Shown here piece after piece: positions 22,397-30,597 of a stretch of 64,000 nucleotides of DNA. The DNA is from Desulforapulum autotrophicum (GTDB lineage Bacteria > Desulfobacterota > Desulfobacteria > Desulfobacterales > Desulfolunaceae): assembly GCA_020723285.1 (NCBI GenBank), contig DYJE01000002.1, positions 186,001-250,000 of the forward strand, read 5' to 3'. The stretch's first letter is position 1. Every line of letters begins with the position of its first letter. Under the pieces are notes generated by a model, which was not told the origin of the DNA, did not search any database, and saw only the letters and a program-made list of their open reading frames with translations. The position numbers and the translations under genes were made by a program.

Positions 22397-23836
22397 TCAT
22401 GATGACAGTTCAGTTTTCATGTCATCCATCGAAGACTGACTGTCGACGTCCATACTTTCATCATCGCGGATGGTCAGCAACTCAGCCAATGCCTCTCGAA
22501 TTTCTTTTACACCGGCAGTGGCGACCCAGTGAACCATATCGTGCTCACGTTTCAGACGGTTCAGTGGAAAACGCCATTTATGTTCTTCAAGATAGGTCTC
22601 CGACAGTTTTCTGATCACGCTCCAGGTATCTCGTCTGCGCTGATTTTCAAGAGATGTTATCGTATCAAAATCATTAATTATTTTTTTATGGAAACGATTT
22701 TTGAACACATTTTTAAAAGCCGCCACAAAAGTAATATAACAAAGGACGGAACCCGCCATCCCGAACGTCATCAAAAGCTGAACAGGCATCCCGCCAAGTG
22801 CCCCTGAAAGACTTAAGAAAAAAATAACGGCAAAGCTTACGATGAGGCTGAAAACACTGGCTGTCACTCCGAAACGGACATCGAACCCCAGGGCCTTTTT
22901 TTTGTAATTCACCAATGCCTCAAGAAAATGATCGAGACTTTCAGAATGATTTTCAACAAAACCCGCAAGATGATCCAGTCTTAAATCAGGAGCGCTCAAG
23001 ATCGTTTCTCTGAGTTCGTCTCTCTGGTTTTCCAGATATTTCAAGTAGTCTGTTTTTTCGGACATTCGTGCGGCGCAGGATGAATAGGTCAGATGAATAC
23101 GCGGAATATCTTTCCGGCCAGTCATCTGTGACAGATTCCAGCAGAGCGTTCCATAAACCTGAAGCATGTCAGTCATGGATTCGCATTCGTCAATACGGTT
23201 CAGCACAAACAGAATCCGTTCTTCGAACGTATTTGCCGGCAATGTTTCCCGAAGGGCCACATAGGTTTCCTGAACCGTCCCCGCTTTATGCGGATCGAAA
23301 AGAACAAGAATAAGGTCTGCAATCCGTGCAAAATCTCCGATCACGTCCTGATAATTGTAGCCACGATCCCTTTCTGTGACACTGTCCAACATCCCCGGCG
23401 TGTCAATAATGGCAAGATTTTTCAAAAAAGGTGAATTCACTTTTTTCAGTCTGAAATGCGAGGCAAAACGCCTGCCATATTTTTTCAGTTTTTCGAAAGG
23501 GAATTCCGGATCGTTCAACAGGTAGGCCCCATCATGTTCCTCCGTAACACGAATGACATGATCCTCACTTTCTGAAGGGTCATAGGTGATCACAGTGAAA
23601 GAGTCATCCGTAGGTGCCTGCCCTGTATCTTGTATGTATCCGCCGATATATTCATTGATTAATGTCGATTTTCCTGAAGAATAATTCCCCAGGATCAGAA
23701 CCACCGGCTTCCATTTGATGGTGGATTCCAACGGCACTTCACTGTACTTGTACTTCAGGGCCACTGGAGTCAGTTTTTCCTCCACCATTTCAATAAGGTC
23801 TTTCTGAAGCGACGTCTTGTAATTTTCCCGGAACAT
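22397..23836 (-). CDS. EHD/dynamin-like membrane GTPase
   Basis: Large GTPase of 479 residues. G1 is GNYSSGKST (50-58), resembling the EHD form GQYSTGKTT. G3 is DTPG (IIDTPGMLDS) and G4 is NRID (LFVLNRIDE) in place of NKxD. Two adjacent hydrophobic segments (about 328-350 and 355-378) would anchor or insert the protein in the membrane. They are followed by a helical tail rich in charged residues and an acidic C-terminus. This layout fits bacterial dynamin/EHD relatives that remodel membranes, but no family was confirmed by search. It is divergent from the sigma-54-driven unknown/LonB operon and may share control with it. Confidence 0.75.
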   Translation of the reverse strand: MFRENYKTSLQKDLIEMVEEKLTPVALKYKYSEVPLESTIKWKPVVLILGNYSSGKSTLINEYIGGYIQDTGQAPTDDSFTVITYDPSESEDHVIRVTEEHDGAYLLNDPEFPFEKLKKYGRRFASHFRLKKVNSPFLKNLAIIDTPGMLDSVTERDRGYNYQDVIGDFARIADLILVLFDPHKAGTVQETYVALRETLPANTFEERILFVLNRIDECESMTDMLQVYGTLCWNLSQMTGRKDIPRIHLTYSSCAARMSEKTDYLKYLENQRDELRETILSAPDLRLDHLAGFVENHSESLDHFLEALVNYKKKALGFDVRFGVTASVFSLIVSFAVIFFLSLSGALGGMPVQLLMTFGMAGSVLCYITFVAAFKNVFKNRFHKKIINDFDTITSLENQRRRDTWSVIRKLSETYLEEHKWRFPLNRLKREHDMVHWVATAGVKEIREALAELLTIRDDESMDVDSQSSMDDMKTELSS

Positions 23837-23911
23837 GACATTCTCCGTTTAAAGTCTTCGTGTTGTCTATGATAAAACGCTTCATGGCTATCAGAACGTT
23901 TTTTTCCGGTC

Positions 23912-23934
23912 AACTGAATTGCGTGAATTCAGTT
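23912..23934. promoter_or_regulatory. 9-bp inverted repeat, candidate activator site
   Basis: AACTGAATT-GCGTG-AATTCAGTT is a perfect 9-bp inverted repeat with a 5-base spacer. It sits about 50 bases upstream of the -24 element of a sigma-54 promoter and about 75 bases upstream of the divergent GTPase start codon on the other side. Position and symmetry fit an enhancer-binding-protein site. A hairpin in the divergent transcript is the alternative. Confidence 0.5.
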
Positions 23935-23982
23935 TTTCGATAGCATATGGAATCTGTCTTGATCTTTTTTCAGCTGGATTCC

Positions 23983-23998
23983 TGGCACCTATCTTGCT
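23983..23998 (+). promoter_or_regulatory. Sigma-54 (-24/-12) promoter
   Basis: TGGCAC-CTATC-TTGCT has GG (23984-23985) and GC (23996-23997) exactly 12 bases apart. It matches the RpoN consensus TGGCAC-N5-TTGCW at every conserved position. Transcription would begin near 24009, about 97 bases before the ATG of the unknown 393-residue protein. This predicts dependence on a bacterial enhancer-binding protein. Confidence 0.82.
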
Positions 23999-24105
23999 TT
24001 ACCGTAAAGGGAAAACCGAAATCAGGATTTGTATTGCAAGTCACTGAATAATATGTAAATGTCCGTTTTTCGGTTTTCAAATGGATTCATAAAATGAGGT
24101 CAGAC

Positions 24106-25287
24106 ATGGGCGTTCAAATCAGCGAAATTAACACCAATAGCGTATGGATCATTTCAGAAAGCAAACCCACGGATTTCAATCCGGAGTCACTTGGGGAAAA
24201 CAATATTCAAGGGCCGATTCGGGAATACGCCATATCCGATCTTGCCCTTTACCTGCTCAATCCAGATCCCATCATCATTCAGGACAAACTGGTCGGTTGT
24301 TACCTGACCTATAAAAAAACGCGTCTTCAAAAATGGAGATCTTTCTTCTCCGCTCCTTTTTCGAAAAAGAAAGATGATGATTCAAAAAACGATCCCATGA
24401 CAAGGGAATATGTTTCAAATCTGCATATGAAAACCTACACATTTAAGGACAGACCCCTTGAGGACCACTTCAAACGGATATACAAAGCCATGAGGCCCTA
24501 CGATGGTCTCTTGCGTTTTCTCGGCCTGATGGATCACGCAAAGGTCCATGATATCACAGGAATCTGTGAAGATATTGCCGGAAATCGATACAAGCTCGAC
24601 CTGTCAGGCAATGTCAAGGACAAGCTGAACTACATGGCCACCTATCTGCTGACCCCTGTAAAAATCACCATGAAACGGGCATATCTCACCAAAGGCCTGT
24701 TTGAACTTCGGGGCTACAAATTTGAAACGTTCAAAGCTGAAACGCGATACAGGCTCGTCCGGTTTTACCAGGATGGAAAGACAACGTTCTGCGTTATGGG
24801 CAGCAATGACAAAAAAGGTTTTTTTGTTCAGGACCCTAAACTGGTTTACTGGTTGCAACTGTTCCAGCAGTCCCTTAAAACCAATGAAACACTCTCGGAA
24901 TCATTGAATCTCTGTGTCAAGGGAGATGCCAAACCCTTCAAGCTATTTTTTACAAAACAGCTTGAATTTTCCTATTCTCAGAATCATCTACCAAAAATTT
25001 TCAGGAACAGCTACGACGTGTCGCGCATGGCTCCGGAAGATAAAAACGCCATTGCTGAAACGCTGAACAATCAGCAGCGTGTCATATCGTTCAACTATAT
25101 TCCACATTCAAATACCGGTGAAGAAAAAATGCATACACATATCTCTGTGATGCACGACTTCAAGGCTCTTGAACCGTTGAAAGACCATTTTCCGGATCTT
25201 TACAACGAAATATCGGAGAACGCTCCGGCCACAGATGCCGGAAAGTTTTACCTTCTTGACTCCATCAAAGGGTGCCAGGATGAATAG
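24106..25287 (+). CDS. Unknown protein in sigma-54 operon with LonB-like protease
   Basis: Protein of 393 residues that I do not recognise. It has no signal peptide or TM segment. A low-complexity basic/acidic patch (FSKKKDDDSKNDPM) lies near residue 90. Two regions around 145-200 and 200-245 look like successive small beta-rich units (TGICEDIAGNRYKLDLSG; KGLFELRGYKFETFKA). The start chosen is ATG 24106, with GAGG six bases upstream; the ATG at 24094 lacks a ribosome site. The stop overlaps the start of the LonB-like gene by eight bases, so the two are translationally coupled. It may be an adaptor, substrate or regulator of that protease, but this rests on gene order only. Confidence 0.8.
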   Translation: MGVQISEINTNSVWIISESKPTDFNPESLGENNIQGPIREYAISDLALYLLNPDPIIIQDKLVGCYLTYKKTRLQKWRSFFSAPFSKKKDDDSKNDPMTREYVSNLHMKTYTFKDRPLEDHFKRIYKAMRPYDGLLRFLGLMDHAKVHDITGICEDIAGNRYKLDLSGNVKDKLNYMATYLLTPVKITMKRAYLTKGLFELRGYKFETFKAETRYRLVRFYQDGKTTFCVMGSNDKKGFFVQDPKLVYWLQLFQQSLKTNETLSESLNLCVKGDAKPFKLFFTKQLEFSYSQNHLPKIFRNSYDVSRMAPEDKNAIAETLNNQQRVISFNYIPHSNTGEEKMHTHISVMHDFKALEPLKDHFPDLYNEISENAPATDAGKFYLLDSIKGCQDE

Positions 25288-27577
25288 TGTGTATACCAAA
25301 CAAGATTATGATGCCGTCGATGAGCTGTTGCATTATCCGGAATTTCTCGACAGACATCTGTCCGGTTTTCAGGACACGTCTGAAATCACTGTACCGGACG
25401 ACCCCATCGAAAAAGTGATATTTCAGAACGAGGCCAAAAAAGCCATCCGGAAAATCGCACAGAACAAAGGACATATCCTCATGGTGGGGAGACCCGGAAC
25501 CGGGAAATCCCTTCTTGCCAACATGTTCAAGGATGTCATTGACGTGTCTTTGGGGGACTATATCAGGCCCAAAGAATCCATTGCCGCCTTTCCTGGCAAA
25601 GACGACAATCATGTCCGGTTTGCCTACGCCTCTCCGGAAATACTCGACAAGCAGATTGAAAAAATCACCGAAGATATTGACAACGCCCGGTGCAACGTGG
25701 AGCCCTTTTCCCTGAAAGAGCAGATACGCCAGGTGAACAAAGTACGCAACGTCCTTCTTTTCATGACCCTTTCAAGTCTTTGTTTAGGATTTGTATTTCC
25801 ACAGGTATTCATCCTGACCGGTCTCTGCGGTATCGGATCCATTTTCATGTTCATGCAGGCCAACAATCACAAAGTTCAGGAACGGATTCAGCAGGACAAT
25901 CAGACCGGACGAAAAAATGAAATGAAGCAGCTTGTGGATATGATACCCGAGGTGCTTTACGATCCAAGAAAAGACAAAGATCTCATGGTCTGCATTTCAG
26001 AGCCTGATGCCAGAAGCATGAAAGGCGGTTTCAGACATGATCCCTACCAGTCGGGAAATCTCCAGACACCGATCCATAAACGGACCTATCTTGGAGCTCA
26101 CGCCAAATCACCCATCATTTATATAGATGAACTGAAAACACTGGTCCGGTCAGGCTACATGTCAAGCCTCCTTGAAATCATGCAGAACAAGGAATACATC
26201 CTGGAAGGTGGTAAAAACACTGGCAGCGGTGCCGCAGACCGTTCTGAAAACATGCTCAAGGCGAACAACATCATCATCGCCTGCTGCAACCATGACACCC
26301 TGTCCTTTCTTCAAAGTGAAGGTGACGGTGCTTTTTTAAGCCGGATTGAAGACAAAGGGGAAATCGTCCAGATGGAATCCAGCGTGGAAGAAACACCCGA
26401 AACCCTGATGCAGACCGCAAGGTACATCAAGCAGGAAATCATTTCCATCGGAACAGAGTTCAGAGATACCTGGGGAGAAATCATCGAAAAGGAAGGTTAC
26501 ATCGGTGTCAGACAGAGAAGTGAAAAAATATTCGGCCGAACTCTTCCCGCAGGATATGTGCTGAAGGAAAGGGAGTTTACACGTAATGCCGTGGCCGAAA
26601 TAGTCAAAGAGCTTCGATGCAGAGCATCCGATGGAAAATTGAGCGCCATTTTGCGGCCCATAAACGGAATCATCAAGACCGCCGAGCATGAAGCCATCCT
26701 TGAAAATGCCGATTTTGTCACAGCAAGGCATGTCAAAAAAGCGCTGATCGAGCACATGAGCCTTGAAGGCTCCTTGTCTAAGGATTCCATCCGTCATAAA
26801 AAAGAGCTGAAAAACTACATCAGTTCCATGACCGACGCCATCGGTTATGTTGTGGGTCTTGCCGTCATTTCATCCCAGGCCAGCGGTCAGATGTTCGGGC
26901 AGCCCTTGCCCATCCACTGTCAGATAAACCCCGGCGGAGCGGATACGGTGGCCGCATCAGGAAAAACCGGTGATATTGCCAAAGCCGCGGCTCAAAACGT
27001 ACGCGCCTCCATCAAGAAAACATTCAGAACAATCGGTGCGCCCTATATCGGTTACGAGATGCATATCGAGTATATTCAAGCCCATGGCGGTGTTGAAGGC
27101 GACAGTGCATCCATTGCCATGGACGTTGCCCTGATCAGTGATTATATCAAAGTCCCTGTGAACCAGAAATTCGGAATCACCGGTTCGCTTACAGGAGACA
27201 TCATTCTTGCCGTTGGAGGGGTTACGGAAAAAGTCCGTTCGATCATGGACCCGGATCTGGATATGATGGGTGCCTGCGTTCCCTGGCAGAACAGAGAAGA
27301 CATTGAACCTCTTCTGGTAAACGTGGAGTGCGAAATGACCACGAACGGCGAAATACCGGGTGTAAGGATTTACAGAACCGAAGGTAAAAAAGATCCGTTC
27401 GACATTTTTTTTATAAAAACCAAATATCACGCTTATAAAATCCTTATGGGAATCGAAAAAAATGAGTTCGAAGATCGTATGGCTGATAGGAGCCGTAAAG
27501 ATTTCGAATTCATGAAATCCATGAAAAAGCCGGAACTTGAAGAAGATAATCATAATTCTAACACTTTTTTAACATGA
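25280..27577 (+). CDS. Membrane-anchored LonB-like ATP-dependent protease
   Basis: AAA+ Ser-Lys protease of 765 residues with the layout of archaeal LonB. Walker A is GRPGTGKS (70-77) and Walker B is IIYIDE (279-284). Two hydrophobic segments (about 156-172 and 174-193) are inserted between them, so the protein should sit in the inner membrane facing the cytoplasm. A sensor/lid region is followed by the C-terminal Lon protease domain with catalytic Ser609 (EGDSAS) and Lys651 (GGVTEKV), 42 residues apart as expected. The large N-terminal substrate domain of classical LonA is absent. It is coupled by an 8-base overlap to the unknown 393-residue protein and driven by sigma-54. It probably degrades membrane or misfolded proteins under a specific signal. 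Confidence 0.9.
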   Translation: MNSVYTKQDYDAVDELLHYPEFLDRHLSGFQDTSEITVPDDPIEKVIFQNEAKKAIRKIAQNKGHILMVGRPGTGKSLLANMFKDVIDVSLGDYIRPKESIAAFPGKDDNHVRFAYASPEILDKQIEKITEDIDNARCNVEPFSLKEQIRQVNKVRNVLLFMTLSSLCLGFVFPQVFILTGLCGIGSIFMFMQANNHKVQERIQQDNQTGRKNEMKQLVDMIPEVLYDPRKDKDLMVCISEPDARSMKGGFRHDPYQSGNLQTPIHKRTYLGAHAKSPIIYIDELKTLVRSGYMSSLLEIMQNKEYILEGGKNTGSGAADRSENMLKANNIIIACCNHDTLSFLQSEGDGAFLSRIEDKGEIVQMESSVEETPETLMQTARYIKQEIISIGTEFRDTWGEIIEKEGYIGVRQRSEKIFGRTLPAGYVLKEREFTRNAVAEIVKELRCRASDGKLSAILRPINGIIKTAEHEAILENADFVTARHVKKALIEHMSLEGSLSKDSIRHKKELKNYISSMTDAIGYVVGLAVISSQASGQMFGQPLPIHCQINPGGADTVAASGKTGDIAKAAAQNVRASIKKTFRTIGAPYIGYEMHIEYIQAHGGVEGDSASIAMDVALISDYIKVPVNQKFGITGSLTGDIILAVGGVTEKVRSIMDPDLDMMGACVPWQNREDIEPLLVNVECEMTTNGEIPGVRIYRTEGKKDPFDIFFIKTKYHAYKILMGIEKNEFEDRMADRSRKDFEFMKSMKKPELEEDNHNSNTFLT

Positions 27578-27582
27578 TCTTA

Positions 27583-27611
27583 TTGACAATCTTACATCAT
27601 ATCTGTATTTT
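27583..27611 (+). promoter_or_regulatory. Sigma-70-type promoter for fusA
   Basis: TTGACA (27583-27588), a 17-base spacer and TATTTT (27606-27611), immediately after the protease gene. It gives a leader of about 180 bases before the EF-G ATG. No gene or clear riboregulator was seen in the leader. Confidence 0.6.
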
Positions 27612-27800: not shown

Positions 27801-29882
27801 ATGAAAAACGATTTGTCAAAAGTTAGAAACATCGGCATCAGCGCCCATATCGACTCGGGCAAAACAACACTCACTGAACGCATCCTGTTTTACACGAACA
27901 GAATTCACGCCATTCATGATGTCAAGGGGAAAGACGGCGTCGGTGCCGTGATGGACTCCATGGAACTGGAGAAAGAACGCGGCATCACCATCGCTTCCGC
28001 TGCGACGTTCTGTGAGTGGAAAGACAACGAGATCAACATCATCGACACCCCGGGTCATGTGGATTTCACCATTGAGGTTGAACGCTCCTTAAGGGTTCTT
28101 GACGGTGCCATTCTCGTTCTCTGCTCCGTTTCCGGCGTCCAGAGTCAGTCCATTACCGTGGACAACCAGATGAAGCGTTACAACGTACCCTGTATCGCCT
28201 TTATCAACAAATGCGACCGGAGTGGTGCGAACCCCTACCGTGTTATCACTCAGCTCAAAGAAAAACTGGGGCACAATCCTCTGGCCCTCCAGATTCCAGT
28301 AGGCCTTGAAGACAAACATAACGGCGTGATTGACCTCCTCACCATGAAAGCCCTTTATTTTGACGGAAAAAATGGTGAGAACATCATCGAGGAGGATATT
28401 CCTAAAGAACTGCTGGACGAAGCCACATCCAAACGTGAAGAGCTTATCGAAACAGCGTCACTTTTCTCCGACGAACTCACGGAAGCCATTCTCGAAGAAG
28501 CTGAGATCACTCCCGGACTGATCATCGAAGCCGTCAGACGTGGAACCATTCAGCGTAAACTGACACCGGTTCTTATGGGCTCTGCTTACAAGAACAAAGG
28601 AGTTCAGCCGCTTCTTGATGCTGTTTCACGTTACCTTCCGGCCCCTTATGACATCCAGAACGATGCCCTTGACATGGACAACAATGAAAAACCTGTTGTT
28701 CTTAAAAGCGATTCCAATGAAAAAACGGTTGCCCTTGCGTTCAAACTTGAAGATGGTCACTACGGCCAGCTGACCTATATCAGGGTTTATCAGGGCGCGA
28801 TTAAAAAAGGCGATACCGTGATCAACACCAAGAACGGACGAAAAGTGAAAATCGGCCGTGTTGTCCGTATGCACGCCGCTGAAATGGAAGACATTGAAAT
28901 GGTTCCTGCCGGTTATATCGGCGCTCTTTTCGGAATCGAGTGCGCTTCAGGCGATACGTTTACCGATCCGTCCATCAATCTGTCCATGCTGTCCATGTTC
29001 GTTCCGGCACCGGTTATCTCCCTTGCGGTTAAGCCCAAGGATAACAAGTCCCAGATCAACATGTCCAAGGCGCTTTCAAGGTTCACCAAGGAAGACCCCA
29101 CATTCAAGACCCACATCGATCCTGAAACCAATGAAACCATTATCGAAGGCATGGGCGAACTTCACCTTGAAGTCTATGTGGAACGCATGTTCAGAGAATA
29201 CAAAGCCGAAGTCGAAACCGGCAAACCCCGGGTTGCCTACAGAGAAACCATCACCCAGCGTGCTGAATATGATTACGTTCATAAGAAACAGACAGGGGGC
29301 TCCGGCCAGTACGCCAAAGTCATGGGCTTCATCGAACCGATTGAAGACGAGCACTTCATTTTTGAAAACAAGGTTACCGGCGGCCGTATCCCTACCAATT
29401 ACATTCCTGCCTGTGAAAAAGGTTTCACGCTCTGTATGAACAAAGGTCCGAAAATGGAATACCCCGTGACCGGTGTCAAGGTAACTCTGACCGATGGGGC
29501 TTTCCATGCGGTGGACAGCTCGGATATGGCGTTCCAGACTGCGGCCCGTGGCGCTTTTATCGAAGCATACCTTAAAGCGAAACCCGTAATCCATGAACCC
29601 ATCATGAAAGTTGAAATCGAGACACCCACTGAATTCCAGGGCAACTGCATGGGCTTGATCAACCAGCGTCGCGGTATGATTCTCGGTTCACAGGACGAAG
29701 GGGTCATGTGCCGGATCGAAGCCCAGGTTCCCCTTTCTGAAATGTTCGGATTTTCAACCATTCTTCGATCAAACACACAGGGCAAGGCCCAATTCACCAT
29801 GGAATTCTGCATGTACAAACAGGTGCCGCAGATGGTCGCCGAGGCATTGATCAAAGCGGCTCAGGATGAGAAAAAGAAATAA
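27801..29882 (+). CDS. fusA: Elongation factor G (spdEFG1/mitochondrial-like type)
   Basis: Ribosomal translocase GTPase, 693 residues, five-domain EF-G. G1 is AHIDSGKTT, switch regions include ERGITI, G3 is DTPGH and G4 is NKCD. Domain IV contains the [12 protein letters not shown] loop and domain V closes with [19 protein letters not shown]. The opening [22 protein letters not shown] uses Ser where typical bacterial EF-G has Ala in AHIDAGKTT. This form is typical of the spdEFG1/mitochondrial EF-G1 lineage, found with a second EF-G in spirochaetes, planctomycetes and delta-proteobacteria (family knowledge). It is not next to rpsL/rpsG, which fits a non-canonical copy. AAGGA lies upstream of the ATG. 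Confidence 0.93.
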
Positions 29883-29901: not shown

Positions 29902-30597
29902 ATGAACGAAAACACCCTTAAACTTGACAACCCCCTGTCTCAGCTCGGTTTTGAAACTGATAGCCTGATTACTCCCGGACAAATGGGAGCCATCTGCGCC
30001 AGAGCCGGAATCGGTAAAACATCTTTTCTCGTTCAAATCGGACTCTACGCCATGGCAAGGGGACAGAAGGTTCTCCATATAAGCCTTGATGAGCCTGTGA
30101 CCAAAATAAATATTTGGTACCGTGAGATGTTCAACCTTATGGCACCTAAAAACGGAATAACCATGATCAATCAGGCCTGGGACACCATAATTTCCAATCG
30201 CCTGATCATGACTCTGAAACTTGACGGTTTTTCTGTTCCACGTCTTGAAGAACGCCTGGCCGATCTTATCGAGCAGGATATTTTCAAGCCAGACACCCTG
30301 GTCGTGGACGGTTTTCCCTTTGAAAAATGTGACCGCTGTCTTCTCAAGGACCTTAAAATTCTTGTGGAAAAAATGGGTATGAATGTCTGGTTCACTGTGA
30401 ACACCCATCGTCATGAGCCTCCGGATCAGGACGGATATCCTGTCCAGCTCACCGGTATGAGCGATCTTTTCAACACGGTCATCCAGCTGATCTCAGAAAA
30501 AAAGATCGTGGATCTTCAGATCCTTAAAGGACAGGTTGATTCAGAAAAAGCGGCATCTCTTTTCATCGATACGGATACCATGCTGATCAGTGCGTGA
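29902..30597 (+). CDS. RecA-like/KaiC-type small ATPase
   Basis: P-loop protein of 231 residues with Walker A CARAGIGKTSF (about 33-43), a strand then HISLDEP, and a Walker B-like segment DTLVVDGFPF. The order fits a single RecA/KaiC-like ATPase domain without further modules. It starts 20 bases after fusA (AAGGAAATAAGAAT before the ATG) and a strong terminator follows, so it is probably co-transcribed with the EF-G gene. No partner protein is nearby and the role is unknown. The conserved pairing with EF-G, if seen in relatives, would point to a translation-linked job. Confidence 0.65.
   Translation: MNENTLKLDNPLSQLGFETDSLITPGQMGAICARAGIGKTSFLVQIGLYAMARGQKVLHISLDEPVTKINIWYREMFNLMAPKNGITMINQAWDTIISNRLIMTLKLDGFSVPRLEERLADLIEQDIFKPDTLVVDGFPFEKCDRCLLKDLKILVEKMGMNVWFTVNTHRHEPPDQDGYPVQLTGMSDLFNTVIQLISEKKIVDLQILKGQVDSEKAASLFIDTDTMLISA

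Follow-up and report, generated by a model that had tools for sequence, protein, structure and literature searches.

Organisation of the locus

The window analysed here, meaning the whole stretch of 64,000 nucleotides taken from Desulforapulum autotrophicum (assembly GCA_020723285.1, contig DYJE01000002.1, positions 186,001 to 250,000), belongs to a host genome of 5.44 Mb (G000, contig C25) and carries on its forward strand two overlapping genes, hereafter UNK and LON, which constitute a conserved two-gene module. UNK (24106..25287, +) encodes an uncharacterised soluble protein of 393 residues with no known family, and LON (25280..27577, +) a LonB-like ATP-dependent protease of 765 residues, predicted to be anchored in the membrane. 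The UNK start at 24106 is preceded by GAGG; an alternative in-frame ATG at 24094, which would lengthen the product to 397 residues, has no GAGG-like site upstream. The ATG of LON at 25280 sits within the final codons of UNK, and its stop codon ends at 27577. The 8 bases shared by the two genes (25280..25287, +), already pointed out in an earlier interpretation made from the letters of the DNA (the sequence-only reading), suggest translational coupling. Upstream of the pair are found a -24/-12 promoter of the sigma-54 type (TGGCACCTATCTTGCT, 23983..23998, +), with the UNK start codon 107 bases downstream of it, and a perfect palindrome with 9-bp arms (AACTGAATT-N5-AATTCAGTT, 23912..23934, strandless), 48 bases upstream of the -24 element.

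Pairing and co-occurrence of UNK and LON

A search of genome contigs with patterns taken from UNK only found no relative, the patterns being probably too specific, and homologous loci were therefore collected by alignment with LON alone as the query. The best 80 of 108 loci were kept as named loci and 28 weaker LON relatives were left out, so that the latter could behave otherwise. In 79 of these 80 loci, UNK immediately precedes LON; the exception (L129) is cut at the contig start. The same order was observed in 14/14 relative loci, which are partly the same records. The two genes overlap in 68 of the 78 loci that were measured; the overlap is exactly 8 bases long for 42 of them and 11 for 20, and in the remaining 10 loci the genes lie 1 to 54 bases apart.

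The presence of both genes was then compared in three overlapping genome samples of the window's own phylum, the loci used for adjacency spanning more phyla. Among 58 relatives, UNK was found in 15 genomes and LON (E <= 1e-30) in the same 15; when 395 genomes were drawn from the phylum, UNK was present in 9 and LON in the same 9; and for 389 genomes of the class, UNK was detected in 63, LON in 60 and both in 59 (Fisher 7.9e-64). Taken together, 66 distinct genomes have both genes. Five genomes of the class sample are unmatched (G513, G008, G590, G655 and G711). In G513 and G008 the UNK matches, which cover 52 and 43 residues, are weak (E 1.5e-4 and 5.2e-4 per single genome, with 389 searched) and probably due to chance; the host proteins have about 110 residues and resemble helix-turn-helix regulators by eye. 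UNK runs off the contig end in G590 and stops at a run of N in G655, where no LON was found elsewhere in the genome (92% complete), and in G711 the LON fragment already starts at base 25 of the contig. Across the three samples, no exception was both intact and clear of a contig end or gap.

These counts bear on the simplest alternative, an ordinary operon of a protease in which UNK is an unrelated passenger gene. Overlapping adjacent genes are common in bacteria, which speaks for such an arrangement. However, it is already contradicted by the co-occurrence data, with a one-to-one presence in the three samples and an adjacency maintained across two phyla, and in G000 the protease part of the LonB model is matched by at least four further stretches, against a single UNK; a passenger gene appears extremely improbable. 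Two complete pairs were also observed in one genome, each LON having its own UNK (L093 and L096, which share a metagenome-assembled genome, MAG; G657, contigs C146 and C194, with two UNK and two LON). The pairing, the order with overlap and this joint duplication point to two products that are needed together. The dedicated two-gene system proposed by the sequence-only reading is thus supported by the adjacency in the named loci and by the co-occurrence in the three samples, and neither of the outcomes that this reading had set against it, homologues of UNK occurring mostly without LonB or belonging to a known family, was found. The pairwise divergences of UNK and LON are correlated (r = 0.88, 2415 non-independent pairs), and the rate of change is about 2.5 times higher for UNK than for LON (median identity 0.36 vs 0.67).

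The carriers are found in Desulfobacterota and Nitrospirota, with some records under other labels. Since the carriers include a named strain, Desulfatibacillum alkenivorans DSM 16219 (L131), the module can be tested. In a quick, unrooted tree of LON (76 rows), in the labels of which many 'Deltaproteobacteria' MAGs are filed as Myxococcota, all 18 Nitrospirota and 2 'Deferribacterota' rows are split off by one branch (SH-aLRT 100), which suggests a mostly vertical descent there.

Domain architecture of LON

In Pfam, LON gives matches to two domains, the Lon protease domain (PF05362) and the LonB AAA-lid (PF20436, 28.8 bits, cut-off 22.4), and its closest sequence match in the PDB is Thermococcus LonB (E 6.2e-54). 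The anatomy described by the sequence-only reading was recovered: the Walker A motif GRPGTGKS (residues 70-77, 25487..25510, +) and the Walker B motif IIYIDE (residues 279-284, 26114..26131, +), whose acidic pair is D283-E284, enclose a hydrophobic segment at residues about 155-195 (25742..25864, +), with a 19-residue Kyte-Doolittle mean of up to 2.05, which would anchor the protein in the membrane. The catalytic residues are intact, Ser609 (27104..27106, +) lying within EGDSAS with Asp608 before it, as in a B-type centre, and Lys651 (27230..27232, +) within GGVTEK.

The same organisation is observed in the homologues. Walker A is present in 79/81 LON rows and the Walker B pattern in 73/81, rows cut at contig ends included. 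For 76 homologues, 3 of them without a pattern match, the distance from the Walker A Lys to the Walker B Asp is 206-208 in 73/73 with both motifs; strongly hydrophobic windows separate the motifs in 67 of these 73, and the maximum mean is at least 1.61 in all of them. An Asp directly precedes the catalytic Ser in 69/69 rows with both catalytic motifs (81 rows, of which 12 gave no pattern match, some being cut at contig ends). The catalytic Ser and Lys are 42 positions apart (41 residues between) in LON and in the same 69/69 rows, vs 43 positions in LonB, and the alignment of LON to 3k1j shows a one-residue gap.

In a published description, LonB is marked by a membrane-anchoring insert of more than 100 residues between Walker A and B, by an Asp just before the catalytic Ser, and by a Ser and a Lys exactly 42 residues apart (PMC9569914). 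The archaeal LonB type announced by the sequence-only reading stands as regards the insert, the Asp-Ser pair and the AAA-lid, and fails as regards the Ser-Lys spacing and the NCBIfam LonB equivalog TIGR00764, against which LON scores 254.8 bits, far under the cut-off of 516.6, a value reached by no match in the 21 genomes searched. Because its Ser-Lys spacing is one short and its score is far below this cut-off, LON is classed by its sequence as a LonB-like variant and not as a strict-sense member. On the same basis it is not a LonA, Walker A starting at residue 70 and Asp608, not Pro, preceding the Ser, nor a LonC, the essential ATPase residues not being lost; the LON N-terminal domain is absent among the 15 Pfam families listed. 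Past about residue 690-702, LON is unaligned to the LonB or Lon models.

In G000, 20 stretches match the LonB model, some in its AAA+ part only. Outside LON, at least four of them (contigs C9, C69, C85 and C91) match the protease part, which means that the module shares this genome with other Lon-type genes. At L089:1573-3855, the LON frame is split in two, reflecting either an assembly error or a decayed copy.

The UNK protein and its possible roles

The protein of 393 residues that had been described as unrecognised has stayed so in wider searches: no Pfam family was found at E <= 1, NCBIfam gave one insignificant match (E 0.02), PHROGs gave no significant match and PADLOC no family at E <= 0.1. 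As a single sequence, UNK has no significant match in the PDB (best E 0.2), and the best match of its profile there, with residues 89-171, is a designed protein (E 0.0032). UNK is soluble by hydropathy, with a maximum over 1.6 in just 1/72 homologues and no typical membrane span. Its AlphaFold2 model, built with 72 homologues, is confident and globular (pLDDT 85.9, pTM 0.84), as is that of its C-terminal half alone (pLDDT 89.5, pTM 0.84). Foldseek retrieved nothing at E <= 0.001, either for whole UNK against the PDB and viral models or for its C-terminal half against the PDB. With VIA-align, uL3 proteins were listed for residues 59-188, at best P. furiosus uL3 (Z 8.2, 81 aligned, 2.6 A, 17% identity), near the tool's 'common' level; the best match of residues about 245-393 was an IcmL-like protein (Z 5.2, 89 residues, 4.6 A), about at that level, and the C-terminal half gave mainly NTF2-like folds, with many rows at Z 3-4. 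These scores are too weak to be used for assigning a uL3-type beta barrel or an NTF2-like fold. The lack of a fold match does not prove a new fold.

Nine residues of UNK are invariant in 72 rows (W14, S44, Y49, P53, C154, P296, L355, P363 and Y382). The invariance of C154 (72/72), together with H121, H350 and D115, which are nearly invariant, keeps an enzyme role of UNK in play. In that case the two products could serve the same pathway without contact, UNK being an enzyme or a sensor of the membrane or stress state and LON clearing the products, and a shared pathway would also account for the pairing. We consider this unlikely, as UNK has no enzyme family or fold match and no particular third gene accompanies most pairs.

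The C-terminal end of UNK is also conserved, with Y382 invariant and G379, L384, D385 and G389 nearly so, and it could act as a degron if UNK were a dedicated substrate of LON. UNK would then be an effector or a regulator, and the protease produced along with it would set its level, the pair forming a controlled-turnover switch. This is the main rival explanation, somewhat improbable in our judgement, and the gene pairing, the order with overlap and the rapid change of UNK are all in agreement with it. However, residues 379-390 form a confident strand in the AlphaFold2 model, not a disordered tag, the DNA encoding this end overlaps the start region of LON in most loci, which is an added constraint, and neither an effector domain nor a DNA-binding domain was recognised in UNK. 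At L059:7814-9005, the UNK frame is split in two, again through an assembly error or in a decayed copy.

Sigma-54 promoter and regulation

The consensus -24/-12 promoter reported by the sequence-only reading was confirmed, the exact element TGGCAC-N5-TTGCT at 23983-23998 being the single exact match in the window, where shuffles expect 0.05; with one mismatch permitted, the site no longer stands out (2.41 expected). Over the 5.44 Mb of the genome, 14 exact sites are found vs 6 for the reversed pattern, and the host encodes an RpoN DNA-binding domain (E 2.0e-61). The sister genome (L116/L016) also carries a sigma-54 site, TGGCACAGGCTTTGCA. A comparable site is present within 200 bases upstream of 11/67 homologues vs 16/318 other genes of the same loci (Fisher p = 0.0026), and for a 300-base upstream span the values are 14/69 homologues vs 0.6% of shuffles. 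In view of these proportions, sigma-54 control recurs without being general or defining. The activator-dependent control initially proposed is therefore partly supported, the site being present here and in the sister genome and not in the majority of the homologues.

Genes of NtrC-type activators occupy 7/120 neighbour positions vs 5/531 others (p = 0.002), the seven representing about 4 lineages. They support sigma-54 control in a subset of loci and are not a component of the module. With two NtrC-type queries, no such gene was found within 15001-40000 of the window. The palindrome at 23912-23934 could be an activator or enhancer site; its conservation does not extend to the sister genome. 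The presumed untranslated leader of UNK contains, at 24011-24078, a perfect inverted repeat of 11 bp (GAAAACCGAAA ... TTTCGGTTTTC), which begins about at the expected start of a sigma-54 transcript. A sigma-70-like site is found just after LON (27583-27611), in a stretch that has 10 such sites vs 6.2 in shuffles.

Neighbouring genes

A dynamin-family GTPase gene with weak LeoA/LeoBC similarity (22397-23836, -) is divergent from UNK. It adjoins the pair in this way here and in the sister genome, and lies about 1 kb beyond LON in G020 (L022). As a third member of the module it was rejected, being present in 8/15 carriers vs 13/43 non-carriers (Fisher p = 0.13, 58 genomes). On the other side, an EF-G gene starts at 27801, downstream of LON, and is directly followed by a gene with weak RecA/DnaB-like ATPase similarity (29902-30597, +); this pair of genes is retained in L016 and L019. 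EF-G was not kept as part of the module; close relatives of it are near LON in L016/L116 and 3.3 kb off in L106/L019, and L027 has a distant EF-G-like stretch, far from LON. Kinase, HDOD, T2SSE and DUF1015 neighbours are lineage-specific and were likewise set aside as components.

A wider scan covered 96 first neighbours of 130-900 residues, 19/80 loci having been dropped as near-copies and several loci having no neighbour on one or both sides. Twelve of these proteins have a response-regulator domain and 6 an HATPase_c domain, and no family occurs in more than 12/96 among the matches listed (25 of 118 families). The surroundings differ between loci, and most pairs have no third gene in common.

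Such varying neighbourhoods, together with a patchy spread (9/395 phylum genomes, 59/389 class genomes), could suggest that the pair is a mobile module or one of anti-phage defence, with the protease as effector. The PADLOC matches of the 96 neighbours argue otherwise, 17 of 25 families matching a single member and the other 8 being sigma-54-activator or MotB models; no defence system recurs among these neighbours, which give single matches to TIR, IetA and others. UNK itself has no PADLOC family and the PADLOC matches of LON are weak (up to 2.7e-4) and confined to its AAA+ part. In addition, no LON relatives were found in the viral contigs or plasmids searched, and the LON tree suggests mostly vertical descent in Nitrospirota. 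A defence module is therefore very improbable.

Proposed mechanism

We propose, giving it an even chance of being right, that UNK serves LON in the cytosol, as an adaptor or as a regulatory subunit. The sequence-only reading had proposed an adaptor or a target, and a possible role in membrane quality control. The mechanism that we infer comprises membrane insertion and proteolysis by LON, binding between UNK and LON, the adaptor role and induction. LON would be an AAA+ protease with a Ser-Lys dyad, tethered to the membrane and presumably, by homology with archaeal LonB, assembled as a hexamer that faces the cytosol. UNK would be soluble and cytosolic, its synthesis being matched to that of LON through translational coupling. 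UNK would bind LON and either recognise a substrate class or sense a condition, and would then present or license the substrate, leading to its unfolding and degradation at the membrane. The module would probably be switched on here via sigma-54 and an enhancer-binding activator, and other promoters must serve most homologous loci. That UNK changes faster than LON fits a recognition part placed beside a conserved engine; it fits a substrate too.

Several points weigh against this adaptor scheme. The binding of UNK to LON is proposed from genomic linkage, and the correlated divergence of the two proteins is expected from co-inheritance alone. A substrate would be expected to change just as fast as UNK does, Foldseek recognised no adaptor fold for whole UNK or for its C-terminal half, and a strong sigma-54 site is absent from 56/67 homologous upstream regions.

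More broadly, it is possible, and we put it forward tentatively, that in at least two bacterial phyla a membrane LonB-like protease works only with an obligate cytosolic partner of unseen fold, which would represent a new class of AAA+ protease subunit, induced through sigma-54 and NtrC-type signalling in some species, the two forming a membrane proteolysis system beside FtsH. If true, sulfate reducers and Nitrospirota would possess a membrane protease of LonB-like type whose partner is obligate, and so close a coupling would allow one to ask directly how LonB-type proteases pick their substrates.

Comparison with known systems

FtsH is a membrane-tethered bacterial AAA+ protease with the same presumed workplace as LON; unlike LON, it is a metalloprotease that depends on zinc and has its membrane helices at the N terminus. 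The adaptors of AAA+ proteases, such as SspB, ClpS, MecA, SmiA and HspQ, are soluble and bring or license substrates, which is the role proposed for UNK. We know of no AAA+ adaptor that is strictly paired with the gene of its protease. UNK has no significant family or PDB sequence match in general searches, made without one-by-one comparison with these adaptors.

Our literature search, for which most subscription journals lie outside the coverage, recognised no account of the UNK-LON pair. According to PMC4864567, only Archaea have a LonB with membrane segments, and bacterial proteases that are LonB-like but lack such segments are noted there. Bacterial sequences of LonB type, as defined by the active-site motif and including a Geobacter protein, are reported in PMC2605481. 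The LonBA of Firmicutes (Bacillus subtilis LonB) is, like LON, bacterial, presumed membrane-bound and without the LonA N-terminal region, according to PMC9569914. However, LonBA has no insert between the Walker motifs, and it has an N-terminal anchor and an A-type centre, whereas in LON the insert is present and the centre is of B type.

Among the closest known systems is archaeal LonB (MEROPS S16.005 sensu stricto; Thermococcus onnurineus LonB, PDB 3k1j, 4zpx). The lonB gene of haloarchaea is co-transcribed with a CAAX-protease-like gene, HVO_0784 (PMC9263693). Archaeal LonB and LON have the same domain order and share the insert between Walker A and B, the Asp before the Ser and the LonB AAA-lid domain. 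LON differs from it in being bacterial, in a Ser-Lys distance one residue shorter, in a C-terminal region that is unaligned, in a TIGR00764 score of 254.8 vs 516.6, and in being paired with UNK.

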